This document shows positions 5,271 to 64,000 of a DNA stretch of 64,000 bases, piece by piece (position 1 is the stretch's first letter; each line of letters opens with the position of its first letter). The stretch comes from Desulfurococcaceae archaeon MEX13E-LK6-19 (GTDB lineage Archaea > Thermoproteota > Thermoprotei_A > Sulfolobales > Desulfurococcaceae). A program made the translations under genes and the position numbers. The notes under the pieces were generated by a model. The model was not told the origin of the DNA. It did not search any database and saw only the letters and a list, made by a program, of their open reading frames with translations. The DNA is taken from the NCBI GenBank assembly GCA_029637525.1, contig CP072660.1:1637612-1701611 (forward strand), written 5' to 3'.

Positions 5271-5697
5271 TCAATAACCTATATCAGCAAGTAATAGGTT
5301 AACGTAGAAAACAAGAGAGTCTGTGTCGTGTTTCTTGAAAATACGCCATAAATTCTATGAAGAGACAGGAAAAAGACCCAGAACATGCCAAGTATGTTTT
5401 GCATGAACATGATTATCTTGAAGCGGTTTTCAAACCAAAAGTCTCTTAAAATAAAGACTAGAAAAGATCTTCTCATTCAAAATAGCTGGTCTTTACATGG
5501 TTTCTCTATGGAACTTATATGTAATGTATACCGGCAAACCAAGAAAATTGCTTGTAACAAACACTATCTCTATAGCTTGCCAGTCTTCTCCTGCTGTACC
5601 AGTTTTATTAATTATACACCTTTAATACTAAGTTTGAGATAACCATGCTTAATATAGTATATAGTGGAAATACCGTGGCTATGGGGTGTTGTAAGTA
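5271..5697. other. Intergenic region, no gene seen
   Basis: This is a 427-base AT-rich stretch between two plus-strand genes. The two short open frames inside it lack ribosome sites and have no family resemblance. I saw no tRNA cloverleaf, no convincing C/D-box pair and no long inverted repeat. The last 60 bases presumably hold the promoter of the following oxidoreductase gene. Confidence 0.5.
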
Positions 5698-6789
5698 TTG
5701 AGTGATATTGTATTCATAGGTCTTGGACGTGTTGGTTCTCTTGCTCTCGAACTCTTTCTGAAAGACCTTAATGGCGACAGGTATAGTATTACTTGTATTG
5801 ATGCTGTTGATAGAAGTGATTTGGCGGAGAAGCTTGGGGCTAAGTTTGTAAAAGCGAGTTCTCCGAGCGAGATAGCTAGGGTTGCTTCGGAGGCTTCTCT
5901 TGCTTGTATAGCGTTACCTTCTATTGTAGCGTTCCGTGTCGCCAAGGAGGTTATTAATCATGGAGTAAACGTTGTTGATGTATCGTTTATTCGCGAAGAC
6001 CCTTATCTTCTTGACCTTGATGCCGTGAAGAATAATGTTTTCTACGTACCCGATGCAGGGTTTGCTCCCGGGTACAGTAATCTCGTAGCCGGGTTCTTCC
6101 AGGATAAACTGGGTGGCGAGCTAGACGAGCTCATCATACATGTTGGCGGCATACCTGTTGAGCCAGTACCCCCAATAGGCTATGTTATCACGTGGAATCC
6201 ACTGGATTTAATAGAGGAGTATACTAGGCCAGCCCGGATAGTTCTTAACGACACGATACAGTACGTCGACCCCTTGTCGATAATCCACCGTGTAGAGATA
6301 GAAGGGCTTGGAGTATTCGAGGGATTCTACAGTGATGGGCTAAGGACTATGCTAAGAAACATAAAGGCCAAGAAAATGGCCGAAATAACGATCAGGCATC
6401 CAGGACATTTACAAGCAATGAAGCTACTGAAGACACTGGGCTTCTTCCAGGATAAACCTGTTGAAGTCGATGGAGTCCGTGTTGAGCCTAAGAAACTGAC
6501 TGCGAAATTATTTGAAGAAAAACTATCGATAAAAACGAAAGACATCGCCATACTGGAGGTTATAGCCAGGAAGAAAGAACAAACACTACGCCACCTATCA
6601 TACCTTATAGGAGGAAACGGGAAACCACCAGCAACAACACTCTACACAGCACTAGTATACGCGAAAACAATAGATATCGCATTAAGAAACAACATAGAAC
6701 CAGGTGTGCAACCACTAGAAAAACTCCACAACTATAAAGAAGAATACGAACAATACCTAGGCAAATACATGAAAATAGAGTACAAATAG
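5698..6789 (+). CDS. Saccharopine-dehydrogenase-like oxidoreductase
   Basis: This 363-residue protein opens with a Rossmann NAD(P)-binding fold (VFIGLGRVGSLALELF, a GxGxxG motif at residues 7-12). It continues with the saccharopine dehydrogenase-type organisation: DVSFIREDPYLLDL, VPDAGFAPGYSNLVAG, and a catalytic/substrate domain containing HVGGIPVEP. The family includes saccharopine dehydrogenases and carboxynorspermidine-type dehydrogenases. The exact substrate is not visible, and archaea of this kind usually lack a saccharopine pathway. The start is TTG 5698 with GGGGTG about 11 bases upstream. It is a single gene with its own upstream gap. Confidence 0.78.
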   Translation: MSDIVFIGLGRVGSLALELFLKDLNGDRYSITCIDAVDRSDLAEKLGAKFVKASSPSEIARVASEASLACIALPSIVAFRVAKEVINHGVNVVDVSFIREDPYLLDLDAVKNNVFYVPDAGFAPGYSNLVAGFFQDKLGGELDELIIHVGGIPVEPVPPIGYVITWNPLDLIEEYTRPARIVLNDTIQYVDPLSIIHRVEIEGLGVFEGFYSDGLRTMLRNIKAKKMAEITIRHPGHLQAMKLLKTLGFFQDKPVEVDGVRVEPKKLTAKLFEEKLSIKTKDIAILEVIARKKEQTLRHLSYLIGGNGKPPATTLYTALVYAKTIDIALRNNIEPGVQPLEKLHNYKEEYEQYLGKYMKIEYK

Positions 6790-6917
6790 CATTGCCATAT
6801 CATGCTTCGTTATTTAGAGAAGATAATTGTATTTAATTTAACAAGACGTTTATTTTATGAACAGCTAAGTAATTAAATATAAAATATAATCAATCAAGAT
6901 ACTTGGGTGTGCCAGGC

Positions 6918-7865
6918 GTGGAGATTCCTGTTCTTGTTTTTATTGATGTTTTATCCAGTATTGTTATTGAAAGAAAGGATAGTGGTAAGATTATTGTTCC
7001 TAGTAAATGTGTACGTGAGGAATTATCTCGTTACCTTAGCGACGATAGATTATCTATAGATCTAGTTGAGAGCCGTGGTTTTGTTGATGCCGATATCGTG
7101 TATACTTCAATGGATTATATTAATAATGATGTAGCTACTAGCATTACCACGAGTTTTAACGGCGTCTTGATTATTGACGAGCCTATTCTTGGTGTTTACA
7201 AGGATCCTTTTCTCGTGAAAAAGCTTGTTTCCCAAGGGTTTGCTAGGTCATGGATTCCCGTTGGCAAAGGGATAGCGTTACTTGCTAGAAGGGGTTTTGA
7301 CAACGATTTTCTTAGAGGAACCATAGAGGTTTATCGTGAATCATTTATTAAAGGCCCTAATCCAATCCACTATAATACTGCCTACCTTCTATACATCATG
7401 ACGAAGTTTGCTTGCAGGTACTATAGTAAGGGGATTGTCGTTGAAGTAGGTACTGGCAGAGGTTTCTCGACACTATGGCTTGCCCATGCCTGTATGGAGA
7501 CTGGTTGCAGGCTAGTTTCTTATGATGTATCAGCTGAACGTATAGAATCTGCTAGAATGTTTCTCAAAAAGCTTGGCCTCATAGATCATGTGGAGCTTGT
7601 CTGTAGTGATGCAAGGAATCCTAGAGATTTTGCTGACGAGGTGAACTTGTTGTTTATTGATGGGAAGAAAGATGAGTACCTCGATTACCTTAAAGCCTTT
7701 GAACAATACTTGATTAAAGGAGCAGTGATCTTGGCACACAACACTATATCAAATAGCGACCTAACAGCCAACTACATTAAACATGTTTACAAGAAATACA
7801 AGTCCATAACAGTACTAAGCGACCCTGCTGGAGTGACGATAAGCGTAAAAACAACTAAACAATAG
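6918..7865 (+). CDS. SAM-dependent methyltransferase (class I, O-methyltransferase-like)
   Basis: This protein has about 315 residues. The C-terminal half is a class I methyltransferase: VVEVGTGRGFSTLWLA is the SAM-binding motif I, LVSYDVSAERIESAR the motif II acidic loop, and VELVCSDARN and LLFIDGKKDEYLDYL match the O-methyltransferase pattern. The N-terminal 150 residues (LVFIDVLSSIVIER, DIVYTSMDYINN, VLIIDEPILGVY) are not part of the catalytic domain and I do not recognise them. The start is uncertain: GTG 6918 follows GGGTG (6905-6909) by 8 bases, and TTG 6903 and GTG 6909 are in frame. The substrate is unknown. Confidence 0.78.
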   Translation: MEIPVLVFIDVLSSIVIERKDSGKIIVPSKCVREELSRYLSDDRLSIDLVESRGFVDADIVYTSMDYINNDVATSITTSFNGVLIIDEPILGVYKDPFLVKKLVSQGFARSWIPVGKGIALLARRGFDNDFLRGTIEVYRESFIKGPNPIHYNTAYLLYIMTKFACRYYSKGIVVEVGTGRGFSTLWLAHACMETGCRLVSYDVSAERIESARMFLKKLGLIDHVELVCSDARNPRDFADEVNLLFIDGKKDEYLDYLKAFEQYLIKGAVILAHNTISNSDLTANYIKHVYKKYKSITVLSDPAGVTISVKTTKQ

Positions 7866-8030
7866 CTAGTTTTAAGTGGAAGCAATGTTTAGATCATGCT
7901 TATAATTGACTACTATGATTCATAGTACAAAATTTATTTAGCACTCATAACACAATGTATGTTTGGGAACACTATAATCTGCCATGGATACAGCGCAATT
8001 AACCACATAGCTATACCAAGGTGAATATCA

Positions 8031-8480
8031 TTGTCTAACACCGCTAGTAGTCTCCAATACGAGCTTCTTGAAGAAGCTAACTTCGTGAAGACATTAAATA
8101 CTATTTCGAGAATAATAGCGTTCATTATATTCATAATAGAGGTACCATATGCACTCTTCCTCTTTGCAATAACATCACATATGCTTGAGTCATCAACATC
8201 GCCACCGCCATTCTTTTTCAAAGGAATACTTTTTGCCATCGTATTGTTTATGCTAGCCTCAGGCATAGTAAACTTCATAATATTTCTAGGCCTCGGCGAC
8301 GTAAACAACCTCATTAAGAGACAAGAGTATAAGAGAGCCCGCAACGCTACATTGATCTACATGATCCTAGGCTTCGTCTTCTCATGGATCCTAGTAGGTG
8401 CATTACTACTAATAGCATACATGAAATACGATACATTGATCAGATTGCATGAATCTATTTCCAAGCAGTCCTCAGTTTAA
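8031..8480 (+). CDS. Small multi-spanning membrane protein
   Basis: This 149-residue protein has about four hydrophobic helices (IIAFIIFIIEVPYALFLFAI; FKGILFAIVLFMLASGIVNFIIFLGL; NATLIYMILGFVFSWILVGALLLIAY). It begins with a polar head (MSNTASSLQYELLEEANF) and ends with a short charged tail. The start is TTG 8031 with AGGTGA 7 bases upstream. I do not recognise the family. It stands alone between the methyltransferase and a radical SAM gene, so the neighbours suggest no role. Confidence 0.6.
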   Translation: MSNTASSLQYELLEEANFVKTLNTISRIIAFIIFIIEVPYALFLFAITSHMLESSTSPPPFFFKGILFAIVLFMLASGIVNFIIFLGLGDVNNLIKRQEYKRARNATLIYMILGFVFSWILVGALLLIAYMKYDTLIRLHESISKQSSV

Positions 8481-8621
8481 ACATGGGGTCTCTGGCATAA
8501 CGTTTCAACCCAATACACGTATCAACAGCTATAGTAAACGAGCTATTGCTTGTAACCAGTTGATAAAGTATTGAGGGAGGTTAGGAGAAGAGAAGAAGCT
8601 AATGTGATGTTTTACAGCGAA

Positions 8622-8630
8622 TTTATAAAT
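8622..8630 (+). promoter_or_regulatory. TATA box upstream of radical SAM gene
   Basis: TTTATAAAT forms an archaeal TATA element about 120 bases before the radical SAM start. Transcription from about 8655 would give a leader of roughly 95 bases that includes the mini-ORF at 8692-8730. Confidence 0.5.
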
Positions 8631-8749
8631 ACATTACCGAATCCTTGGGTAGGGGTTCATGAACATAATTATAATTAAGGAGCCTATATCAATGGTATTT
8701 ATATTGGTTAATGGACATAAGTTCTTGTAGAAGCCATGGTGTAAAGTCT

Positions 8750-9919
8750 ATGGTATTGAAGAATAAGCCACGCAGTCTTATTGAGGTTATCGAGTTTAAG
8801 GAGAATGTTAAGAGGGAGCTAGAGAAACTTCTTGATCCCGGTTCTAGGAGGCGTGCTCTCCGTGACTACCATGCTCGTAGGAGGCCTCGCCCTTGCGGTA
8901 TGACTGTCCATACTGGTGTTGGCTGTGACTATGCTTGTCTTTATTGTTACATCATTGACATGGGGTTTAAGTGGGGCGCCAAGCCTTACCCGTTGTCTGG
9001 CCTCGAGCTCGCTTATGCTCTTGCAAACAACCCGTTCTTCATCCCGGGTCCGAGGGGCACTTTTATTGCCATGGGCTCTGTTACTGAGCCGTTCCTGGAG
9101 AAAACCAGAGAGAAGGCTTTCGAGTATATTGAGGCTATATCCCGGTTCCTAGGGAACCCTATACAGTTCTCAACGAAAGCATATTTATCGCTTGACGACG
9201 CGAAGAGACTCTATAAGCTCGAGCCTGGTATCAGCCCTCTCGTCACAATCGTGACGATAAAGTATAGTAGCAGACTAGAGCCGAAAGCACCCTCGCCCGA
9301 CGAGCGGTTTGAAAGCATAGAGAACCTGGCACGAGCAGGACTTAAACCTATACTGTTTCTCCGCCCAATAATACCCGGTGTTAATGACAGGGAGTATCCT
9401 GAGATCCTTGAGCGCGCCAAGAAAGCTGGCGCTGTGGGTGTTGTCGCTGGCTCGCTTAGGGTAACCGAGAGAATACTCTTCCTCTTCGAGAAAATAGGGA
9501 TCAATACAAGAGAGATCAAGAGAAGACTCAAGAAGACTCCTCATGGAACAGAACAAGTCGATATAGACACAACCGATATCAAAACCAGGATACTAGAGCA
9601 TGCCAGAGCAATCGGGCTCAAAACATTCCCAATGGCCTGCATGGCGAACCTCTACACCCACAACCAGTTATGCCACCCAATGATAGCAAGAAACATAGCC
9701 ACTTTCCAAGAGGGGCTCGAGAAACCACCCGAAGTAGACTACGAAGAAATAACCGAGGCAGCCAAACACCTAGGGCTAAGGGTAGAAGAAATAAAACTAA
9801 CTCCTAGAGGAGACAAAGCAATAATAAAGATCAGGGGAGACAAAACAAAAACCTTGTTCCTAGGAGAACTCATTAAATCCCACTATAGAATATGCATAAA
9901 AATACAAAGCAAGCACTAG
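8750..9919 (+). CDS. Radical SAM protein, spore-photoproduct-lyase-like (SplB/COG1533 group)
   Basis: This radical SAM enzyme has about 389 residues. The cluster motif is C-DYA-C-LY-C within VHTGVGCDYACLYCY, followed by aromatic and Gly-rich segments (FIAMGSVTEPFLE, PIQFSTKAYL, LFLRPIIPGVND) typical of the COG1533 group that includes spore photoproduct lyase. Archaeal members have no known substrate. A third conserved block, CMANLYTHNQLCHP, carries two further cysteines and could bind an auxiliary cluster. Start ATG 8750 has GGTGT 7 bases upstream; ATG 8711 is an in-frame alternative without a close ribosome site. AAGGAG (8678-8682) instead serves a 12-codon frame at 8692-8730 that overlaps ATG 8711 out of frame. 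Confidence 0.8.
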   Translation: MVLKNKPRSLIEVIEFKENVKRELEKLLDPGSRRRALRDYHARRRPRPCGMTVHTGVGCDYACLYCYIIDMGFKWGAKPYPLSGLELAYALANNPFFIPGPRGTFIAMGSVTEPFLEKTREKAFEYIEAISRFLGNPIQFSTKAYLSLDDAKRLYKLEPGISPLVTIVTIKYSSRLEPKAPSPDERFESIENLARAGLKPILFLRPIIPGVNDREYPEILERAKKAGAVGVVAGSLRVTERILFLFEKIGINTREIKRRLKKTPHGTEQVDIDTTDIKTRILEHARAIGLKTFPMACMANLYTHNQLCHPMIARNIATFQEGLEKPPEVDYEEITEAAKHLGLRVEEIKLTPRGDKAIIKIRGDKTKTLFLGELIKSHYRICIKIQSKH

Positions 9920-9940
9920 CATAACGGTTAGCAACACTAT

Positions 9941-9960
9941 TGGAAACCGGCCGGTTTCCA
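9941..9960. repeat. Perfect 20-base GC-rich palindrome
   Basis: TGGAAACCGGCCGGTTTCCA is its own reverse complement. It lies in the 117-base gap between two convergent genes. The GC-rich centre stands out against AT-rich surroundings. It could be a site for a dimeric protein or, as an 8-base stem with a GGCC loop, a bidirectional RNA 3'-end structure. Confidence 0.75.
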
Positions 9961-10036
9961 TAAATGACTGTAGATACACAAACTACAATACCCATCGAAT
10001 ATTTTGAAAAAATAATATGGTGTTTATTTAGGGTTA

Positions 10037-11251
10037 TTATCTTCCCGGTAAATACTTCTTAGCTATTAGCATAGATGAAATTGCTGAAAGTAGAATAGCT
10101 ATTACAATGATTGTGTATAAACTATTATCTACAGCTCCTGCTGTCTCATTGTCTTCTATATCATCCTCCCCAGTAGATGGTAATTGTGCTGTAATTGTCG
10201 TACGCGGCTCTATTATTATAAGCCACGCGCCTTGTTTAAATAGATCACCATATTCTTCAATGTTCTGCAACTTGAATACTATCTTATTTATAAACTCTTC
10301 TAAACCCGTATTACCATTCGTCATATCTATTACGCAATCACTACGCAAATGTATGAAGTCAATATATAGCTGCATAGAGCCTATGCCATTGAAACAAGGT
10401 ATCTCATTCTTTAGTACATGGTAGAGTTGAGGAGAAAGAATATCTTTATGCAGATAGTAGTAACTATAAGGACTCCAGGGCTGGTCTAGTATTATTACTG
10501 TATTGACTTGTTTAAACGAGTTCTTTATTTGTCTCCCAAGTTCTTCGAGAAGATTTGTCGGTAGCTCTACATTATCTATGTATATTATGATGTTTTCTTT
10601 GATACCATTATCGTCTACCACGATCATTTCCTCAACATCGTATTTCCGGACTCCATGGCTGTTCATGAATTTTCTTAGCATATAGTGTATGGAATGTGCT
10701 TCACTTTTACTCTTAACAATTCTTAGTAAATATGTCTTGAACGAGCTAACACTATTGCCTAGCTTCTCGGCATCAACTTGCCCTATTAGATGAAAATACC
10801 TAGCTACAACTTTATACTTGATAAGCCCGCTAATACTTGTATTGAAGTAGCTAAAAACAATATATGGGTCTTCTCGTTCACTCAATAAATTCATTACAGT
10901 ACTTAAATTCATCTTATTTTTCTCAGCATAATCAAGATCGATATTGTTGAGGTCAAAACCTGGGGGTATTAGCATTTGATTCTTCTCAAAAACAATACCA
11001 GTGATTTCATCTATTTGACTGGAGAACTCATTCGGTGTCGACGAGATATACACGTAGAAGTTACCGTTAACATATGTGAACACCCGGCGATTTACTCTAA
11101 ATACGATAACATCTCCATAATTATAGACATGATACAGCTCTTTGCCACCTACACTACTATACTCCAATACACCAAAAGCAATATGCATGGTCGTCGATGT
11201 TAGTAGAATAACTAATATGAGTGAGACAAATAGATATCCATGTTTTCTCAT
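10037..11251 (-). CDS. Secreted, C-terminally membrane-anchored protein of unknown function
   Basis: This is a 404-residue extracytoplasmic protein. It has an N-terminal signal sequence (basic MRKHG, then a hydrophobic core of about 22 residues) and a C-terminal transmembrane helix near residues 378-398 followed by a short basic tail (KKYLPGR). The tail is preceded by an acidic linker (EDDIEDNETAG). The bulk is a mixed alpha/beta exterior domain with no motif I recognise. Start ATG 11251 follows GGGTGA by 6 bases. It has the same anchoring plan as the surface proteins at 16-18 kb, though without obvious sequence similarity. It is a monocistronic minus-strand gene ending near the 20-base palindrome. 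Confidence 0.7.
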   Translation of the reverse strand: MRKHGYLFVSLILVILLTSTTMHIAFGVLEYSSVGGKELYHVYNYGDVIVFRVNRRVFTYVNGNFYVYISSTPNEFSSQIDEITGIVFEKNQMLIPPGFDLNNIDLDYAEKNKMNLSTVMNLLSEREDPYIVFSYFNTSISGLIKYKVVARYFHLIGQVDAEKLGNSVSSFKTYLLRIVKSKSEAHSIHYMLRKFMNSHGVRKYDVEEMIVVDDNGIKENIIIYIDNVELPTNLLEELGRQIKNSFKQVNTVIILDQPWSPYSYYYLHKDILSPQLYHVLKNEIPCFNGIGSMQLYIDFIHLRSDCVIDMTNGNTGLEEFINKIVFKLQNIEEYGDLFKQGAWLIIIEPRTTITAQLPSTGEDDIEDNETAGAVDNSLYTIIVIAILLSAISSMLIAKKYLPGR

Positions 11252-49562: not shown

Positions 49563-50519
49563 ATGTTTATAGCAGGTATTGATGCTGGTGCAACAAAAAC
49601 AAAAGTAGTAATCACTGACTCTAATGGACATATTCTTGCAAAAACCATGGGCGGACCAGGAAACCCTACTGCTTTAGGCTGGGATAACGCTTTATCAAAT
49701 ATAGTAGAGACACTACGCAATGCACTGCAACAGGCGAAACTAGATTATGTCGATAAAATCATTGCAAGCGTTGCCTATACAGGATGGGGTAAGTATAGAG
49801 GAAGATACGTAGAGACATTCATCCGTGAGAAAATAGCTCGTCAAGTAATTGTTCTAGAAGACTATAAGGCTTCGCTTTATACATGCTTTCCTGAAGGCGA
49901 GGGAATAATATACATTATGGGCACCGGAAGTAGTTGCTATGGATACTATCGAGGCAAAGAAGCCCTCGTAGGAGGATGGGGGCATTTGCTCGGAGACGAG
50001 GGAAGCGGCTACTATGTTGGTAGAGAAGGAATTACCGCGGCATTGAAGTACTTTGATGGACGAGGAGAACCAACATTATTACTACGTTACCTTAGAGAAT
50101 GGGGTAAACAAGATAGTGTATACGAGATCGTGTCAATGATATATACAAGCAATTCGCCAAAGACGCTCATAGCCAGCTTTGCACCATATGTAGTTAAAGC
50201 ATATAATGAAGGAGATGATGTTGCAGCAAGAATACTACGAAATGCCGTAAAAGAAGCCCTTCTAACAATCAAGACATGTATAGAAAAACTCCATTATGAT
50301 AGACGCGAAATAGGGTTCACTGGAGGATTCTATAGTGGAGCAAAAAATATACTAGCTAAACTGATTGATTCGGAATCCGAGAAAATACTTGGGTTTAAAA
50401 TAACGATAAAAGAACCTATCGCACCAATAGAGTGTGCTCTTGTACTACATGAATTAAGGAAACAAAATACTTCTTTTAACGAAAATGAATTCATAAGCAA
50501 ATGTAAGAACTATACATAA
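49563..50519 (+). CDS. BadF/BcrA-family sugar kinase (N-acetylglucosamine kinase-like)
   Basis: This 318-residue ATPase of the BadF/BadG family has the ASKHA fold and is related to eukaryotic-type N-acetylglucosamine kinases. Phosphate-1 loop GIDAGATKTKVVITDSNG opens the protein, followed by the acidic NPTALGWDNAL, the phosphate-2 loop MGTGSSCYG, GGWGHLLGDEGSGYY (the family's 'GGwG..lGDeGSg' motif) and an adenosine loop in GFTGGFYSG. Cytoplasmic. The likely reaction is ATP-dependent phosphorylation of GlcNAc or a related hexosamine, which would feed NagA at 61970. The start is ATG 49563. Confidence 0.85.
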   Translation: MFIAGIDAGATKTKVVITDSNGHILAKTMGGPGNPTALGWDNALSNIVETLRNALQQAKLDYVDKIIASVAYTGWGKYRGRYVETFIREKIARQVIVLEDYKASLYTCFPEGEGIIYIMGTGSSCYGYYRGKEALVGGWGHLLGDEGSGYYVGREGITAALKYFDGRGEPTLLLRYLREWGKQDSVYEIVSMIYTSNSPKTLIASFAPYVVKAYNEGDDVAARILRNAVKEALLTIKTCIEKLHYDRREIGFTGGFYSGAKNILAKLIDSESEKILGFKITIKEPIAPIECALVLHELRKQNTSFNENEFISKCKNYT

Positions 50520-50610: not shown

Positions 50611-53600
50611 ATGTTGAGAAAAACACGTTTGCTGCCTTTATTTAGTTTAGTTGTATTACTGCTAATTAATCTAGTAGCATTAACACCACATGGCACTACC
50701 ATTAATCCCAGTATCAACACTAACAACTCGAGCTCAGGTATTCTACTCATAGTATTGCCTGCAAGCATACCTGACGATCCTGTTCTAGCAGACAATGTTA
50801 TTGAAGCATTGATAACAATTAACAAGGCACTATATAGTGGAGAAGTCAAAGCATACATGCTTGTAAACGATGAAGTTATTGAGGGCACAACTGCGCCAAA
50901 GGGGTCTATAATAGTTACTGGTGATACAACAGAGCTAGAACAAGAGCTGAAGTCTCTGGGAATAACTGTTGTTGAACTACATGCTCTACCAGCAGTCAAG
51001 GTATTAACTCTTAACCCACCTAAGATAGGTATACTTGACGTCGGCAAGACTTATACAATACATAGTGTTTTGAGAGAAATGGGTTTTGTTTACAGTGTTG
51101 TAAGCCCTACGGCTGTAGACAGACTCTTAAACGAGGGCTATAATGTCTTCATACTACCACCAGGAAGCGGCACATACATAGCCAAGCTATTGGGTGAGGA
51201 AGGAGCTAGAGAATTAGCTGAATATGTTGCTGAAGGAGGAGGATTAATAGGTATCTGTGCTGGCGCGTATGCTGTCATAGAAGGATACAATAACTGGACA
51301 GCACTCCTACAGCTAGTTGATGCGAAACTGAAGAATTGGCCAACATGGTGGCTTGGGACAGGTATAGTTCATGTAGAGGTAACTAATCCTGATAACCCTG
51401 TTGTATACGGGTTTAGCGATGGATTCGATGCAATATACTACAATGGCCCAATACTTGTTCCAAAAGATCTTGGCGATAACACAACACTAGGAATAGACGT
51501 AGAACCATATATTGAACTTGTAAAATACGTTTCAACAAGCCATGAACCAGGTGCTTTCAGTTATGGATGGGGTGACTTAGACCAATCCTACGTCGACAAC
51601 GTTATGGCCGGCGGCTCGGCTGTAACATTCTCTCACTACGGAAAAGGCAAGATAGTATTGTTCAGCATACATCCAGAACTCACAAGCGGTGATACAAGCT
51701 ACGCGCCAAACAGTACTCTAGCAACCAAGTATAACTGGAGAATGCTATTCAACGCAATATACTATGTGTCAAACTCCAACACAATAACTCTAGCAAGAGC
51801 CCTCAAAGGAGCATGGATCTGGCCATCAACATTCAGGTACATCTACGAGTTTATCAGAGAAAACTATCCGGCTCTAACTAAAGACGAGGCAGCCTATTAT
51901 GCAGCCGAGTTATTCGCATACGAATTATCAAGCTACGGAATTACTGATGTGTTTATAGAAGTCAAGTCTACTCGTGGATATGCATTCTATCCAAGCAATG
52001 TCCTCCCACCATATCCTCTAGAACCATATAATAACACAAACTTATACAAACCATTAATAGTAAAGCTCCATGAGTATGGTATAAGAGTACATGCTTGGAT
52101 ACCATGTTTCTATGACAGAGAGGTATGGGGACCAAAGGATCCCGTGTGGCATGTCGGTAAATCTATAAGCAATTGGAAACCCTATCCTGTGACAAAGTAT
52201 GTTAGACCAGCAAACACGACATACGTTAACATCTTGGCGGAGTTTACGAGAGAGCTTCTTTCCATGGGATTCGATGGAATACATTTAGATTACATACGTT
52301 ACGGACACATGGTCTATAGTTTCTCGCCAAGAGACATCGAGAGAGCTGAGGCATCCGGTATAAACGTCACAAAAGTTATTGATGCAATTAGAAGGACATT
52401 CTATACAGATTATTCAGGCGGCTATGATCCAACATATGTGTGGAGACTCTACATAAATGGAGATCCCGACATTACTAAATGGTTTAGTCTTAGGAGACAG
52501 GACATAGTCAACGCAATAACGACTATAGCCGAGGCAGCAAGAGATCAAGGAACAATATATGGCACTGAACCCATTCTCTCAGCAGCATTAATGCCCGACG
52601 TTACTATTAACAGGACAATAGAGGGGTACAACTTCACGATACCGGGACCAGTATTCCAGATGCTTCATTATGGACAAATATATGAAGACTTTGCAAGACT
52701 GGGCTTCTGGTTAATACCAATGGCGTACTATGTTAGCTATGGACAAAACGTTACTTGGATCAAAACCGTCGCTGAATATGTTGTATCCGTAACTAACGAA
52801 TATGGAGGTACACCACTGATAGGTCTACAAGCATGGAGTGTAGGTTACGATGATATTAGAACAGAAGAAAGCCTGGCAATAGAGGGCGGGGTACTAGGGT
52901 ATGTCTATTTCAGATGGGCAACCTATAGATCAACAGTAAAGGGAGAGACATGGAGTACGTATTCTGACGCATACGATGAACTGTATTCACTAATACCAAA
53001 GGTAATCAGCGCAGTTTCATCTCTACAGCCAAACAGTACTATCTCAAACGATCTTATCAAATACTACATGATAGTTGACGCTGTTGAAGCAGGAGTACTG
53101 TATCCAAATCCACAAGAGTTCATACCAGAAGCCTATGGTAAAGTACTGCTGGTAATAGATAACTTGGCTCCAGTAATCGCTAAGAAGATTACACTACTCA
53201 GAAACCTCATTACAACACATGATCTTGAAGAATACAGTAGCTCTATAACATTATTAGAGCTACTACTATCAAGACTTAATACAACAAGCGATTTGAGTCA
53301 AAGAACTCTCCTCTTAGAAGAAATAACAGATACAATAAGTATTCTCGAGATCAAGGTAATTACAGCAATTGTTGATAATATCGCAGAAGAAATAACACAG
53401 TTAAAAGAAAACCTAACAAGAGTTTCATTGAAGACAGCATCGAATGAAGAGTCAATAAGTTCACTAACAACAAAGATAAGTCAATTAGAGAATGAATTAA
53501 TGGAGCTAAAGAACACCAATATAACGAACATAGAGAACATTATAGCAAGCCTTAACAGTACATTAGTAGAGCTCAAACAATCACTAGAAAAACAAGACCA

Positions 53601-53769
53601 AGACTTGAGTAGAATCAATGAAACATTCAGAACCGATATAGACACCATCAAAGATAAGGTATCAGACCTTGAAGCAGGCAGTAGGAACACTTTATACTTA
53701 GCCATAGGAGCATTAGTATTATCAATAACTGCACTTGGAGCAATGGTACTCGCTTTCACTAAGAAATAA
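50611..53769 (+). CDS. Surface fusion: GATase-like domain plus glycosidase-like TIM barrel with coiled-coil anchor
   Basis: This is a 1052-residue extracellular protein. The signal peptide is followed by a class I amidotransferase-like domain of the biotin-protein-ligase-N type (VFILPPGSGTYIAKLLG, then GGGLIGICAGAYAVIEG with Cys near residue 216). A GHL10-like TIM barrel follows (IWPSTFRYIYEFIREN, GIRVHAWIPCFYDR, MGFDGIHLDYIRYGH with the conserved 'DGIhlDYIRY'). A long coiled coil (TLLEEITDTISILE..., ISQLENELMELKN...) leads to a C-terminal helix (YLAIGALVLSITALGAMVLAF). GHL10 proteins are putative glycoside hydrolases; activity is inferred. It resembles the TIM barrel at 59705-60940. Start ATG 50611 is followed by TTG 50614. 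Confidence 0.78.
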   Translation: MLRKTRLLPLFSLVVLLLINLVALTPHGTTINPSINTNNSSSGILLIVLPASIPDDPVLADNVIEALITINKALYSGEVKAYMLVNDEVIEGTTAPKGSIIVTGDTTELEQELKSLGITVVELHALPAVKVLTLNPPKIGILDVGKTYTIHSVLREMGFVYSVVSPTAVDRLLNEGYNVFILPPGSGTYIAKLLGEEGARELAEYVAEGGGLIGICAGAYAVIEGYNNWTALLQLVDAKLKNWPTWWLGTGIVHVEVTNPDNPVVYGFSDGFDAIYYNGPILVPKDLGDNTTLGIDVEPYIELVKYVSTSHEPGAFSYGWGDLDQSYVDNVMAGGSAVTFSHYGKGKIVLFSIHPELTSGDTSYAPNSTLATKYNWRMLFNAIYYVSNSNTITLARALKGAWIWPSTFRYIYEFIRENYPALTKDEAAYYAAELFAYELSSYGITDVFIEVKSTRGYAFYPSNVLPPYPLEPYNNTNLYKPLIVKLHEYGIRVHAWIPCFYDREVWGPKDPVWHVGKSISNWKPYPVTKYVRPANTTYVNILAEFTRELLSMGFDGIHLDYIRYGHMVYSFSPRDIERAEASGINVTKVIDAIRRTFYTDYSGGYDPTYVWRLYINGDPDITKWFSLRRQDIVNAITTIAEAARDQGTIYGTEPILSAALMPDVTINRTIEGYNFTIPGPVFQMLHYGQIYEDFARLGFWLIPMAYYVSYGQNVTWIKTVAEYVVSVTNEYGGTPLIGLQAWSVGYDDIRTEESLAIEGGVLGYVYFRWATYRSTVKGETWSTYSDAYDELYSLIPKVISAVSSLQPNSTISNDLIKYYMIVDAVEAGVLYPNPQEFIPEAYGKVLLVIDNLAPVIAKKITLLRNLITTHDLEEYSSSITLLELLLSRLNTTSDLSQRTLLLEEITDTISILEIKVITAIVDNIAEEITQLKENLTRVSLKTASNEESISSLTTKISQLENELMELKNTNITNIENIIASLNSTLVELKQSLEKQDQDLSRINETFRTDIDTIKDKVSDLEAGSRNTLYLAIGALVLSITALGAMVLAFTKK

Positions 53770-56563: not shown

Positions 56564-57922
56564 TTGGTAAACAACTATATTGCCGGCTTTGCAAAGACCG
56601 TGATAACCCCAGAGAAAAGCATGCCTATGGCAGGCTACATTAATAGAGAGCACCATGCAACAGGCAAACTTGACGATCTTTATGCACGTGTTCTTTACCT
56701 AGAATCCCCCCTAAAGGGCTCGGTACTAATAGTGTCCCTGGACTTGATAAGAATAGACAATGAATTATATAAAGAACTGAGAAACACTATTGCCACAAAG
56801 TATAACCTCAATCCTGATTCAATACACGTAGTTGCTACACATACACATTCGGGACCGGAAATAAGTCTGGAAGTCTGGAATACAAAGCCACTTAATCACA
56901 TTGAAAAAGAGCTTGTTAGAGAATACAGGAATTTTCTCTTAGAAAAAATTACCGAAACCGTAGGTACGGCTCTCAATAACCTGCACCCCGTAAAGATACA
57001 AGTTGGTTCAACACAAATAGAGGGTGTTGCCAGCAATAGAGTTGACCCCAATGGCCCTATAGATAACGAGACAGTAATCATTACCATCAAAGATAGCGAG
57101 GACAACATAAGGGCTATTGTGATAAACTATGCATGCCACCCAACGGTACTAGGTCCCCTAAATACACTATACTCCGGAGATTTAGCAGGAAAAGTATCTA
57201 AAATCATTGAAGACACATACAACTGTGTATGCCTATACCTCAATGGAGCTGCGGGTAATGTAAGTACCAGATTTACACGTAGAAGCCAAGACTATCATGA
57301 AGTAGAGAAATTCGCGTCACTAATAGTTAATAAAATAAAAGAGAAGCTCACACAAGGACTTGAAGAAATACCCGTGTCAACAATTACAACAACATGGCAT
57401 AAAGAGACTATAAAGCTCAGAAATCCACCTAGTGAAGAGGAGTTAAGACTTGCTGAAATGGAGTTAAAAAGAAGGCTTGAAGAGGCTCTGAAGAAGAACT
57501 ATAACGAAGCTGTATTGAGGGGCTTAAAAAGCGATTTAGCAGCAACACTGATATCTAAGGAAAGAAGGTGGTTTCTAGAGAAGAATAGATTCATTGAACT
57601 CGAGATAGCGTTGACTAGAATAGGCGATTATTTATCAATACTATTCTTCCCTGGCGAGGCGTTTATAGAATACCAGATTAGCGCGAAGCAATGCAGTACA
57701 ACCAAGTATACAGTTTTCGTAGGTTACGCCAACGGATATTGGGGTTACATACCATATAAGAAACATTCCCCAAAACTAGTCTCCTATGAGGAAGTAGTAT
57801 CAATGATTGATCCTAGTGAGTACCCTAAGATAGAAATGCTTATCAAAAAAGCATTGGGATGCGGGATCAAAGACTTGGCATTATCGTCAACACTAACTAA
57901 AACTAAAGTAAAGGAAGTCTAA
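56564..57922 (+). CDS. Neutral/alkaline ceramidase N-terminal domain-like hydrolase
   Basis: This 452-residue protein resembles the neutral ceramidase catalytic domain. Visible are AGFAKTVITPEKSMPMAGY (the 'dITP....MaGY' opening), VVATHTHSGPE (zinc-ligand motif THTHSGP), YACHPTVLG, and YLNGAAGNVSTR. The family hydrolyses N-acyl amide bonds of ceramides using zinc. Archaea lack ceramide, so the natural substrate is likely another N-acyl amine. No signal peptide is evident, unlike the secreted eukaryotic enzymes, and the C-terminal beta-domain is absent. The start is TTG 56564 with AGGTGA upstream. Its 3' end overlaps the convergent Gfo/Idh/MocA gene by 20 bases. Confidence 0.82.
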   Translation: MVNNYIAGFAKTVITPEKSMPMAGYINREHHATGKLDDLYARVLYLESPLKGSVLIVSLDLIRIDNELYKELRNTIATKYNLNPDSIHVVATHTHSGPEISLEVWNTKPLNHIEKELVREYRNFLLEKITETVGTALNNLHPVKIQVGSTQIEGVASNRVDPNGPIDNETVIITIKDSEDNIRAIVINYACHPTVLGPLNTLYSGDLAGKVSKIIEDTYNCVCLYLNGAAGNVSTRFTRRSQDYHEVEKFASLIVNKIKEKLTQGLEEIPVSTITTTWHKETIKLRNPPSEEELRLAEMELKRRLEEALKKNYNEAVLRGLKSDLAATLISKERRWFLEKNRFIELEIALTRIGDYLSILFFPGEAFIEYQISAKQCSTTKYTVFVGYANGYWGYIPYKKHSPKLVSYEEVVSMIDPSEYPKIEMLIKKALGCGIKDLALSSTLTKTKVKEV

Positions 57923-59704: not shown

Positions 59705-60940
59705 TCAACACACCCCCGTGAGTACGCACGATGCCTCACGTAAAATTGCACGCGGAGCCCATCCATAAGAATACAGGTAAACACCATCAACACTTGTTTT
59801 AATAGCAAGCCTTATGTCTCTAGCTAGAGTCTCGGGTGTTTGAGGAGGCCAAGCAGCTAGACCAGCAATAATCTTCACATGACCTGGAAGCATCTGCCTG
59901 GCTTTCATGATCTCATAGGGTATCCTATTGGGAGATTCACTAAATGGCTCAGTATAAAGCATTATCTTTGCAGAGTCAAGAAGCTTCCCAATAACACTAT
60001 AGCATTGCCCAACAAGCCAACTTCTCGATGGAGGAACCAGGTCTGCTGACAGCAACGTATTTTGCCTATAGGACTTCAGTGTATCCCTAACAATAGTAAC
60101 TATTTCAGCAATGCTTTCACATCTAAACTCTATCCATTTAGCCAGCATCTCATCGCCTAGTATATCATTGATGAAGCTCCAGTACCTTGATTCAACACAA
60201 TCAATATCATTACTCGTACAATACACGGAAGTTTTCTCGTGAACACTAATGGTGGCTTCAAGCAATTGTTTTATCTTGGAAGCAATTCTATTGAGGTCTA
60301 TCCCTTTCTTCTCAGCTTCTCTTCTACAGTCTTTACAGAAGCATGGAAGCTGTGAAAATAGTATGTATGGATCCTTAATTGTAGCAAGCGGGTGAGGAAA
60401 CCTTATGTAGTCTAGTTCAAGTTCGTCGAACTCGTAGTTCACACTAATATCCTCAACAATAAGACGAATGAGCTTCTTTATAAGAGGGTTATTTGGACAG
60501 ACAAAATATCGTTTATAGCCTGCAATACTCTCATAAACATCTTTAACACCATAATCAGGATTCGCCCTAACGATACTACCCCATCTAAGCATAGGTAACC
60601 AGAAAACACAACGAATACCCTGTGCACGACTCCTCTCAGAAAACTCCTTAACAACATCATATCCTACATCACGGCTTCGACGTGGTCTCAGCTCCTCAGG
60701 TAGTTCCGTATAGCGTCGCTCATCAAGATCCCAGTATACTGTTGCTTCTTCAGAGACAAACGTTTTCCTCACAGGGTTCCTGTAGATAACACTTGTACCG
60801 GGGTAGGCTTGTTTTTCCTCAACATATCTAATGGCCATACTGACACTATTGAATCCAAGATTCTTTACATCACTAAGAAACTCGTCAACACCTATGTTAG
60901 CTATATCCCAGGGATGAACCCATATACCCTTGATAAACAA
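59705..60940 (-). CDS. Putative glycosidase-like TIM barrel protein
   Basis: This 411-residue cytoplasmic protein with a TIM-barrel glycosidase look opens with FIKGIWVHPWDIANIGVDEFLSDVKNLGFNSV. It has FDELELDYIRFPH, comparable to 'DGIHLDYIRY' of the fusion at 50611, where the first Asp/Glu pair would sit at the barrel end. A CFCKDCRREAEKKGI segment with CxxC is reminiscent of bacterial GHL-type hypothetical glycosidases. No signal peptide, so intracellular substrate. The exact family is not certain. It is the first gene of the operon with the isomerase-like and Gfo/Idh/MocA genes; dyads are upstream. Confidence 0.7.
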   Translation of the reverse strand: MFIKGIWVHPWDIANIGVDEFLSDVKNLGFNSVSMAIRYVEEKQAYPGTSVIYRNPVRKTFVSEEATVYWDLDERRYTELPEELRPRRSRDVGYDVVKEFSERSRAQGIRCVFWLPMLRWGSIVRANPDYGVKDVYESIAGYKRYFVCPNNPLIKKLIRLIVEDISVNYEFDELELDYIRFPHPLATIKDPYILFSQLPCFCKDCRREAEKKGIDLNRIASKIKQLLEATISVHEKTSVYCTSNDIDCVESRYWSFINDILGDEMLAKWIEFRCESIAEIVTIVRDTLKSYRQNTLLSADLVPPSRSWLVGQCYSVIGKLLDSAKIMLYTEPFSESPNRIPYEIMKARQMLPGHVKIIAGLAAWPPQTPETLARDIRLAIKTSVDGVYLYSYGWAPRAILREASCVLTGVC

Positions 60941-61047: not shown

Positions 61048-61788
61048 TTACAACAACTTTATCCTACTCCTATATTTCTCGTACAAAGCCCTATTGTATT
61101 CATCAGCACCCGGTAAATGCGAGCTAATCCAGACCGGTGGCTCCACACCCTTCTCAACAAGTTTTCTTATGGTCTCAGCCACGATGCTATTAACTATGAA
61201 TGTATTGAGTATAGTTGATACCGGTGCTACACGCGTACTAAATCCCTCGACTTCTAGTACAGCATCACCACGTGGTACATGGTTATCTATAACAACATCA
61301 ACAACTTCATAAAGCCTCTTACCAAACTTGTTCTTCGGCTCAAGTTGCGAAGAGTATTTCACCGAGGTAATGCCTATTGTTTTGGCACCCATTTCACTAG
61401 ATTTTATAGCTGCTTCAACAGGAAATTGGTTTACACCACTTGTTGAAACAACTATTACTACATCACCAGCAGAAACACCGTGATGCTTTAACAGTATTTC
61501 AGCATAGCCTACGATATGCTCCATTGCTGTTGATTTTAGACTACCATGATGGACCGTAATATCGTTATCAAGTATAGGATCAATAGCTGCTAAACCTCCA
61601 GCTCTGTAAAACATTTCCTCACCAACCATAGCAGAATGTCCTGCCCCAACAACATGTATTATCTTGTCATTCTCCAAAGCCTCGGCTACAACAGTTGACG
61701 CTTTATCTATATTCTCCTGTTCGTCTCTAAGAACTTGAGTCAATAATTCTACAACAATATCATAGTATTTCTTAACGAGGCTAACCAT
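61048..61788 (-). CDS. SIS-domain phosphosugar-binding protein (UPF0309-like)
   Basis: This 246-residue protein has a SIS (sugar isomerase) domain. IIHVVGAGHSAMVGEEMFYRAGGL is the phosphosugar-binding loop, and GDVVIVVSTSGVNQFPVEAA and AKTIGITSVKYSSQLEPKN are the later conserved SIS strands. The full-length pattern fits the UPF0309 group, related to MurQ-type N-acetylmuramic acid 6-phosphate enzymes. It likely binds or isomerises an N-acetylhexosamine 6-phosphate. ATG 61788 has GGGTG 7 bases upstream. It is divergent from nagA. Confidence 0.85.
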   Translation of the reverse strand: MVSLVKKYYDIVVELLTQVLRDEQENIDKASTVVAEALENDKIIHVVGAGHSAMVGEEMFYRAGGLAAIDPILDNDITVHHGSLKSTAMEHIVGYAEILLKHHGVSAGDVVIVVSTSGVNQFPVEAAIKSSEMGAKTIGITSVKYSSQLEPKNKFGKRLYEVVDVVIDNHVPRGDAVLEVEGFSTRVAPVSTILNTFIVNSIVAETIRKLVEKGVEPPVWISSHLPGADEYNRALYEKYRSRIKLL

Positions 61789-61969: not shown

Positions 61970-63139
61970 TTGCCCGGCGAATTATTGATAAGACATGCAA
62001 GGATCTATACCCCTCTAACAATAATAGATAATGGATTCATATACATCAAGGAAGGCATAATTAAGGACGTTGGCAGCGAGCCATGTCCCATAAAATGCTC
62101 GAATATTATAAACGCCGAAGACCTTATTGTAGCCCCTGGCTTTATAGATACACATATTCATGGATACAAAGGCTATGATTCTAATGACTGTAAACCAGAG
62201 AGTTTTCTCGAAATCTCAAAACTCATTACAAGACACGGCGTAACCGCGTTTATCCCATCAACTGTCACGGCATCACATGAAACACTTTTGGAGGCGTCAA
62301 AAGCGGTTTACGAAGCAATAAAATCATGGAATGGCGGAGGAGCTAGAATACTTGGTCTACATCTTGAAGGACCCTACATTAGTAAAGAGAAAAGAGGTGC
62401 CCAAAACCCAGAATACATTAGACCAGCTTCAAGACAAGAACTCAGAGAATACATCAAAGCCTCAAATAACCATATCAGACAGATCACTGTAGCACCGGAA
62501 GCTCCTGGTGTAATTGATCTCATACCCTATGCTGTTGAAAACGAGATAACAGTTTCTATTGGTCACACGAATGCGTCCTACGAGGAAACCAGGAAAGCTA
62601 TTGAAGCCGGGGCATCCAAGGCAACCCATTTATACAATGCAATGAAGTCTATCCATCACCGTGAACCAGGTCCTATCATAGCCCTGTTAGAAAACCCTGG
62701 TGTCTACATAGAATTAATTACAGATTTTATTCATGTAAGCAAGCCTATGGTGAAGTTTACCATTGACTACGCAGGCTATGAACGCATAGTATTGATTACA
62801 GATGCTATAAGCGCGACAATGCTCCCTGATGGAAAATACAGTCTAGGGGGACTCGATGTAATAGTCGAAAAAGGCGTCCCAAGGCTTGCTTCAACACATG
62901 CACTCGCCGGTAGTACTCTTACAATGGATAAAGCCGTTAGAAACGTGTATAGCCTTGGCTACAGTCTCCAACAAGTACTATCAATGGCTACCTTGAATCC
63001 GGCTAAGTCAATCCATGCTATATACAGGGAGAAGATCGGTTTGATCAAACCAGGATTCAAGGCAGATATTGTTTTCCTCGATGAAAACCTCGAAGTAGTC
63101 AAGACCATGGTTGAAGGAGAACTTGTTTACGAAAAATAG
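61970..63139 (+). CDS. nagA: N-acetylglucosamine-6-phosphate deacetylase
   Basis: This 389-residue amidohydrolase converts N-acetylglucosamine 6-phosphate to glucosamine 6-phosphate and acetate. All active-site motifs are present: DTHIHG (H62, H64), HLEGPYIS (Glu 133), SIGHTNA (H199), THLYNAM (H220) and ITDAIS (catalytic Asp 278), with the C-terminal 'NPAKSIH' and KADIVFLD of the amidohydrolase superfamily. Length and motif spacing match bacterial NagA. Cytoplasmic. The start is TTG 61970 with GAGGAT 8 bases upstream. It is 30 bases before the GlmS-like gene, forming an operon, and downstream of a divergent promoter with nested dyads. Confidence 0.95.
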   Translation: MPGELLIRHARIYTPLTIIDNGFIYIKEGIIKDVGSEPCPIKCSNIINAEDLIVAPGFIDTHIHGYKGYDSNDCKPESFLEISKLITRHGVTAFIPSTVTASHETLLEASKAVYEAIKSWNGGGARILGLHLEGPYISKEKRGAQNPEYIRPASRQELREYIKASNNHIRQITVAPEAPGVIDLIPYAVENEITVSIGHTNASYEETRKAIEAGASKATHLYNAMKSIHHREPGPIIALLENPGVYIELITDFIHVSKPMVKFTIDYAGYERIVLITDAISATMLPDGKYSLGGLDVIVEKGVPRLASTHALAGSTLTMDKAVRNVYSLGYSLQQVLSMATLNPAKSIHAIYREKIGLIKPGFKADIVFLDENLEVVKTMVEGELVYEK

Positions 63140-63169
63140 TTCGTTGAACACCCCAGGTGAGGTGATATA

Positions 63170-64000
63170 ATGGGCGGTATATTCGGTGTGATATGCTCTG
63201 AGAAAATAGGTAAAGGTGTTGTAATAGAGGGGTTAAAGAGGCTAATTTACAGAGGATACGATGGCGCTGGAGTAGCTTTTCTCGATCCAAAAGGCAATAT
63301 TATCGTGAAGAAAGCACCTGGACATCTCGATGAAGCTGTTAAAAAAGCTGGTTTAGATGAAACTCCCTCAGATATCGTATTAGGGCATGTGAGATACGCT
63401 AGCAGAGGCTGGCCATCATATGAGAACACTCATCCTCTTCTCGACTGTGATGGAAAAATAGCTGTTGTCGGCGATGGTGTTATCGAGAACTATGAAGATG
63501 TAAAGAAAGAGCTTGAAAAGAAAGGACATAAATTCTCCTCGAGAACTGATACCGAGGTATTTGCTCACCTACTTGAAGAACTAGTCTACAAAGACAATAA
63601 AGAGCCATTAATAGCCATGGCAGAGGCCTCAAGAAAACTTAGTGGAGTCTACGCAATAGCGGCATTGTTTTCTGGGAGAAAGAAGCTCTATGCCGTAAAC
63701 ATGGGCCAGCCCATAGTGATAGGTCTAAGAAATGATGGTAGATGCGTCTATATTTCCAGCGACATACCTAGTCTCTACGGCTTTGCTGATGAGGCTCTTA
63801 TTCTTGAGGAGGGTATGGCTGCTGAAGTGGGTCTTGATGAGATAAAGGTTATCGATATCTCATCCTTCACAGAAGTAGGAGAACTTAAGAAGAAACGCGT
63901 CAAGTACCCTATCGAAGTCATTGACAAGGCTGGGTTCCCCCACTTTATGTTGAAAGAAATATATGAGATCCCGGACGCCATTATTAGGACAACATATTCA
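63170..64000 (+). CDS. glmS: GlmS family aminotransferase/deaminase lacking the glutaminase Cys (partial)
   Basis: This is the 5' part (277 codons, running off the window) of a GlmS-family protein: a glutaminase-like domain (YRGYDGAGVA, HVRYASRG, TDTEVFAHLL) and the start of the isomerase part (FPHFMLKEIYEIPDAI, matching 'HFMLKEI.eQP'). The catalytic Cys normally following the initiator Met (MCGI) is Gly here (MGGIFGV), the oxyanion Asn-Gly of 'NGIIEN' is Asp-Gly (GDGVIENYED), and the THG histidine is Arg (ASRG). The glutaminase site therefore looks inactive. It follows NagA by 30 bases, so it may deaminate or isomerise glucosamine 6-phosphate without glutamine. ATG 63170 has GAGGTG upstream. 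Confidence 0.88.
   Translation, partial: MGGIFGVICSEKIGKGVVIEGLKRLIYRGYDGAGVAFLDPKGNIIVKKAPGHLDEAVKKAGLDETPSDIVLGHVRYASRGWPSYENTHPLLDCDGKIAVVGDGVIENYEDVKKELEKKGHKFSSRTDTEVFAHLLEELVYKDNKEPLIAMAEASRKLSGVYAIAALFSGRKKLYAVNMGQPIVIGLRNDGRCVYISSDIPSLYGFADEALILEEGMAAEVGLDEIKVIDISSFTEVGELKKKRVKYPIEVIDKAGFPHFMLKEIYEIPDAIIRTTYS

Follow-up and report, generated by a model that had tools for sequence, protein, structure and literature searches.

A GlmS paralogue encoded beside nagA in Desulfurococcaceae archaeon MEX13E-LK6-19 has lost the residues with which GlmS hydrolyses glutamine, and retains an intact isomerase site. Judged from its sequence and genomic setting, the protein is probably a glutamine-independent glucosamine-6-phosphate (GlcN-6-P) deaminase-isomerase of N-acetylglucosamine (GlcNAc) catabolism that carries a catalytically dead glutaminase domain; we put the probability of this reading at roughly 0.66. 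The paralogues form a single clade, in which the loss of the nucleophile, the oxyanion-hole asparagine and the channel-gate tryptophan is fixed.

Gene structure and start site

The analysed stretch of DNA (the window; 64,000 nucleotides) ends inside the gene: the open reading frame begins MGGIFGV and is still open at the last position. The rest of the gene was recovered from the source genome, a single contig of 1,910,795 bases, and extends the gene to 63170–64990 (+) in window coordinates. The complete, intact frame encodes 606 amino acids, with both SIS domains whole. As the first-pass annotation had noted, NagA is encoded next door; 30 bp separate the nagA stop codon from the paralogue ATG. 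Only three codons upstream of this ATG are open and the Shine-Dalgarno-like GGTGAGGTGA precedes it, which leaves no room for an overlooked N-terminal extension with a cysteine and makes the start secure.

The source genome also encodes an ordinary GlmS, recognised by MCGIIGV, RWATHG, HNG and a C-terminal VTVE, which shares 37% identity with the window protein and whose gene lies directly upstream of a GlmU-like nucleotidyltransferase gene. Glucosamine phosphate synthesis is thus already covered, and the window gene is a paralogue. Among 147 genomes of the order, most of those that carry the paralogue likewise keep an ordinary GlmS.

Table 1. Features of the paralogue gene and its surroundings, in window coordinates. 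Residue counts refer to 71 paralogues and 27 ordinary GlmS sequences.
Feature	Position	Strand	Evidence
BadF/NagK-type kinase, candidate GlcNAc kinase	49563..50519	+	PF01869 126 bits; NF046058 NagK 107 bits, below cut-off of 370
SIS_2 sugar-phosphate-binding protein, recurrent nagA neighbour	61048..61788	-	PF13580; NF002805 305.8 bits
nagA	61970..63139	+	TIGR00221 328 bits, cut-off 226
Shine-Dalgarno-like GGTGAGGTGA before paralogue ATG	63156..63165	+	Sequence; start context compared across 60 orthologues
GlmS paralogue, residues 1–277 of 606 (glutaminase domain dead)	63170..64000	+	GATase_6/7 and two SIS domains (Pfam)
Codon GGC (Gly) replacing catalytic Cys1	63173..63175	+	Gly in 71/71 paralogues; Cys in 27/27 ordinary GlmS
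Codon TAC (Tyr76) replacing ammonia-channel gate Trp74	63395..63397	+	Trp lost in 71/71 paralogues; kept in 27/27 ordinary GlmS
Codon AGA (Arg79) replacing His77 of THG	63404..63406	+	Paralogues: Arg 38/71, His 33/71
Codon GAT (Asp102) replacing oxyanion-hole Asn98	63473..63475	+	Asp in 71/71 paralogues; Asn in 27/27 ordinary GlmS

Loss of the glutaminase site

Residues were counted in an alignment of the paralogues and ordinary GlmS sequences, using E. coli GlmS numbering. Alignment of the N-terminal domain with E. coli GlmS showed that Cys1, Trp74, His77 and Asn98 are all substituted in the window protein, with THG becoming SRG and HNG becoming GDG. The glutamine-pocket residues Arg73, His86, Gly99 and Asp123 are still present, as are the fold motifs YRGYDGAG, TDTE and HFMLKEI that had been read from the window beforehand. 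Two substitutions called in the first-pass annotation, Cys1 to Gly and Asn98 to Asp, were found in the window gene and in every paralogue aligned. The third, His77 to Arg, is real in the window gene but lineage-specific rather than clade-wide. The change of Trp74 to Tyr is an additional loss that had been missed.

In human GFAT-1, glutamine hydrolysis is assigned to Cys2, Asn123 and Gly124 (PMC7000685). Because the nucleophile, the oxyanion-hole asparagine and the channel-gate tryptophan are all gone, the glutaminase domain of the paralogue is predicted to be unable to hydrolyse glutamine. Sequencing error had already been argued against, and this explanation, together with that of a decaying pseudogene, is refuted: Gly1 and Asp98 occur in all 71 orthologues, the 606-residue frame is intact, and the gene has both a Shine-Dalgarno sequence and an operon position.

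Distribution, origin and constraint

Paralogue-type matches, at about 40–69% identity, occurred in 60 of the 147 genomes of the order; ordinary GlmS matched at 33–39% identity, with scores well apart from those of the paralogue type. Sampling across the phylum added paralogues in Thermofilum-like, Thermoproteus-like and Caldivirga-like genomes. Other lineages of the phylum sample gave ordinary-level scores only, and all seven borderline matches checked start with MCG. Among the best 80 loci of a wider contig scan, 70 were readable: three have Gly1, all from Thermoproteota, 66 have Cys1 and one was unclear. Absence of the paralogue outside Thermoproteota is only indicated by these best 80 loci.

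A tree was built from the isomerase domain alone, so that the glutaminase changes cannot bias the grouping. In this tree, all 34 sampled paralogues fall into one clade (support 99/99), sister to ordinary GlmS. One ancient loss of glutaminase function is the simplest reading of this clade.

The N-terminal domain of the paralogues diverges faster than that of ordinary GlmS, with a ratio of N-terminal to isomerase identity of 0.74 versus 1.02, as expected after a loss of function. Fifteen columns of this domain are nevertheless invariant among the paralogues, including Gly1, Gly2, Arg73, Gly78, Asp98, Gly99, Asp123 and Glu125. Glycine would not be expected to persist at the nucleophile position under neutral decay, and the dead domain is partly frozen. 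The part of the domain within the window was predicted to fold with a mean pLDDT of 88.6. The best fold match of the model is the GlmS glutaminase domain with bound glutamate (1xff; TM 0.91, normalised to target length); the GlmS C1A mutant (3ooj) comes next. These predictions suggest that the dead domain still folds.

Conservation of the isomerase site

Residues Lys485, Glu488, His504 and Lys603, as well as Ser347-Gln348-Ser349 (E. coli numbering), are retained in all 71 paralogues. In the window protein's own numbering, the isomerase residues are Lys488, Glu491, His507 and Lys602. The retained residues correspond to catalytic or substrate-binding residues of human GFAT-1, in which Lys558, Glu561, His577 and Lys676 are the catalytically relevant residues of the isomerase (PMC7000685). 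Class-specific changes occur near the sugar-site residue Val399: Ala400 is replaced by Pro in 71/71 paralogues, Gly398 by Ala in 96% and Gln408 by Thr in 90%.

Association with nagA

Of the 41 genomes that contain both genes, 18 have nagA no more than 350 bp from the paralogue, and 22 have the two genes within 12 kb of each other. For the ordinary glmS gene, nagA lay within 350 bp in 0 of the 22 nagA genomes with coordinates listed. Arrangements of nagA and the paralogue differ by lineage (tandem in both orders, convergent and divergent), and adjacency is also seen in Thermofilum-like genomes; the link is therefore not one inherited gene order. The 41 genomes with both genes compare with totals of 60 with the paralogue and 50 with nagA (odds ratio 18.7, p = 2.6e-13, Fisher's test, uncorrected for shared ancestry). 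No nagA above the cut-off was found in 19 of the 60 paralogue genomes; there, GlcN-6-P must come from elsewhere or the protein must have some other role. A PIG-L deacetylase was considered as a substitute for NagA in these genomes and rejected: only some carry one, and most of those examined do not.

Other genes of the neighbourhood were also noted. The SIS_2 gene, which matches NF002805, is found again next to nagA and the paralogue in different families. A neutral-ceramidase-like protein (PF04734, N-terminal half; 56564–57922, +) is found again close to nagA in Thermofilum-like genomes and at locus L055. Positions 50611–53769 (+) encode a 1052-residue protein in which a BPL_N domain is fused to a DUF4015 glycosidase-like domain; its gene adjoins that of the NagK-type kinase and lies near that of a GHL10-like protein at 59705–60940.

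Alternative candidate deaminases in the order

NagB (PF01182) was found in none of the 147 genomes of the order, the source genome included, and in 9 of 14 control genomes. The window protein has GATase and SIS domains only, with no PF01182 match, and a scan for SIS domains found no stand-alone two-SIS deaminase in the source genome.

Nine genomes have nagA without the paralogue, and five of these (G050, G004, G015, G026 and G036) encode a stand-alone two-SIS protein of 328–420 residues. Four such proteins, of family f5, retain the KE...H.E and RHGP motifs and a C-terminal lysine. In G050, the 328-residue two-SIS gene overlaps nagA, and its product retains KLKE, LHGP and the C-terminal lysine. 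Two congeners of G050 (G136 and G146) lack that SIS gene next to nagA, where ABC genes of the same kind are found, and carry the paralogue elsewhere. SIS-domain scans of eight genomes with both nagA and the paralogue (the source genome, G065, G002, G146, G136, G078, G113 and G046) found no such stand-alone protein. The pattern is not exclusive, since eight other genomes combine the paralogue with a stand-alone GlmD-like protein. The nagA genomes G001, G023 and G060 have neither the paralogue nor a stand-alone two-SIS candidate; SIS proteins of 323–335 residues in G023 and G060 were rejected as deaminases because their Glu/His motifs are missing.

At one locus (L056 of G145; 5665–10791), the paralogue, an SIS_2 gene, nagA and a stand-alone GlmD-like protein form a single cluster, which places two candidate deaminases next to each other. 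The stand-alone GlmS-type isomerase proteins of family f5 (L274–L277; 364–420 residues) form a well-supported group in the isomerase tree that branches just outside the pair of GlmS and the paralogue, separate from the GlmD-like group.

Relation to known enzymes

The paralogue shares with GlmS/GFAT (TIGR01135) its two-part architecture, full-length homology and isomerase catalytic residues. In contrast to GlmS, every paralogue lacks the catalytic cysteine, the oxyanion asparagine and the gate tryptophan, and the paralogues form a separate, nagA-linked clade. As the window protein scores 492 bits against TIGR01135 (cut-off 418), automatic annotation would name it glutamine--fructose-6-phosphate transaminase, and the clade is probably misannotated as GlmS. 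The engineered E. coli GlmS mutant C1A, which folds without Cys1 and ranks among the closest structural matches to the predicted domain, is a laboratory counterpart; the paralogue family is natural, fixed and old, and carries further changes.

GlmD (NF041128; 2dec, 2cb0) has two SIS domains of the GlmS-isomerase type and catalyses the reaction proposed here for the paralogue. However, GlmD has no glutaminase domain, whereas the 606-residue paralogue has a GATase domain that is predicted to fold. The window protein scores 78.9 bits against the GlmD profile (cut-off 580), and GlmD-like stand-alone proteins branch apart from the paralogue clade in the isomerase tree. Similarly, NagB-II (NF046059; 8eol, 8eym, 8fdb) is an SIS-type GlcN-6-P deaminase whose gene adjoins nagA in Xanthomonas, where a nagB-II-nagA operon has been described (PMC13055268), but it is a stand-alone SIS protein, and the window protein scores 130.5 bits against its profile (cut-off 430). 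Scores against the NagB-II and GlmD profiles were discarded as a deaminase marker because they did not discriminate among the members scanned: paralogues gave 107–133 and 70–79 bits, respectively, and ordinary GlmS 100–136 and 77–143 bits. By the tests applied here, the paralogue is a GlmS homologue that fails the glutaminase features defining GlmS, and it belongs to neither GlmD nor NagB-II. No published description of the clade was found in the open-access literature searched.

Proposed function and competing explanations

Conversion of GlcN-6-P into fructose-6-P and ammonia needs the isomerase half of the enzyme only, and GlmD and NagB-II use that half alone. It is proposed that a kinase would make GlcNAc-6-P, from which NagA would make GlcN-6-P. 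The two SIS domains of the paralogue would then open the ring, isomerise the sugar and release ammonia to yield fructose-6-P, the GlmS reaction in reverse, using the retained Lys488, Glu491, His507 and Lys602. The dead glutaminase domain may be retained as a cap with a structural or a ligand-sensing role.

We infer deaminase activity, in this direction, because the isomerase site is intact and because adjacency to nagA recurs for the paralogue and is absent for ordinary GlmS. Furthermore, the order lacks NagB, a separate ordinary GlmS is present, and stand-alone two-SIS proteins occur in some nagA genomes without the paralogue. Against this assignment stand the 19 paralogue genomes without recognisable nagA, the eight genomes with both the paralogue and a GlmD-like protein, the three nagA genomes with neither candidate, and profile scores for NagB-II and GlmD that are no higher for paralogues than for ordinary GlmS.

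The same intact isomerase residues would also serve an ammonia-dependent GlcN-6-P synthase, in which the isomerase domain would work in the synthetic direction on free ammonium, with no need of glutamine. Reversibility has precedent: GlmD of P. furiosus, a protein without a glutaminase, has been used in yeast to produce glucosamine from glucose and ammonium (PMC12385614). This explanation is unlikely, as the paralogue adjoins nagA rather than GlmU or GlmM, and most paralogue genomes keep an ordinary GlmS, which in the source genome is the copy adjoining the GlmU-like gene. The class-specific changes near the sugar site, along with the 19 paralogue genomes without nagA, could instead point to a different sugar phosphate, such as GalN-6-P or one derived from some other 2-amino sugar, or to a plain aldose-ketose isomerase. 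A phosphate loop and catalytic residues identical to those of GlmS, and nagA as the commonest neighbour found, make such a change of substrate or reaction improbable.

It is more doubtful still that the paralogue is a pseudoenzyme, serving as a regulatory subunit for the cell's ordinary GlmS. Most paralogue genomes do offer such a partner, and the partial freezing of the dead pocket (Gly1, Arg73, Asp98, Gly99 and Asp123) would suit a regulator; yet a pure regulator would have no need of isomerase catalytic residues kept in 71/71 sequences, and linkage to nagA is seen for the paralogue and not for ordinary GlmS.

Within the preferred reading of the paralogue as a GlcN-6-P deaminase, the invariance of Arg73, Gly99, Asp123, Gly1 and Asp98 in a domain that otherwise evolves faster suggests a tentative role for the dead domain. 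As a sensor, it might bind but not convert glutamine, glutamate or ammonium, and so switch the deaminase on or off, placing it under nitrogen control. This is a possibility to which we attach rather low confidence. If it were true, the paralogue would be a natural amidotransferase running in reverse under nitrogen control.

Implications

Many Thermoproteota possess nagA and no NagB, and the paralogue is a candidate for their missing GlcN-6-P deaminase. Members of this clade, which NCBIfam scores as GlmS, should not be taken as glutamine-dependent glucosamine synthases. The clade also shows, as a clear example from nature, a multidomain amidotransferase that has lost the function of its ammonia-producing half and yet keeps that half under constraint.
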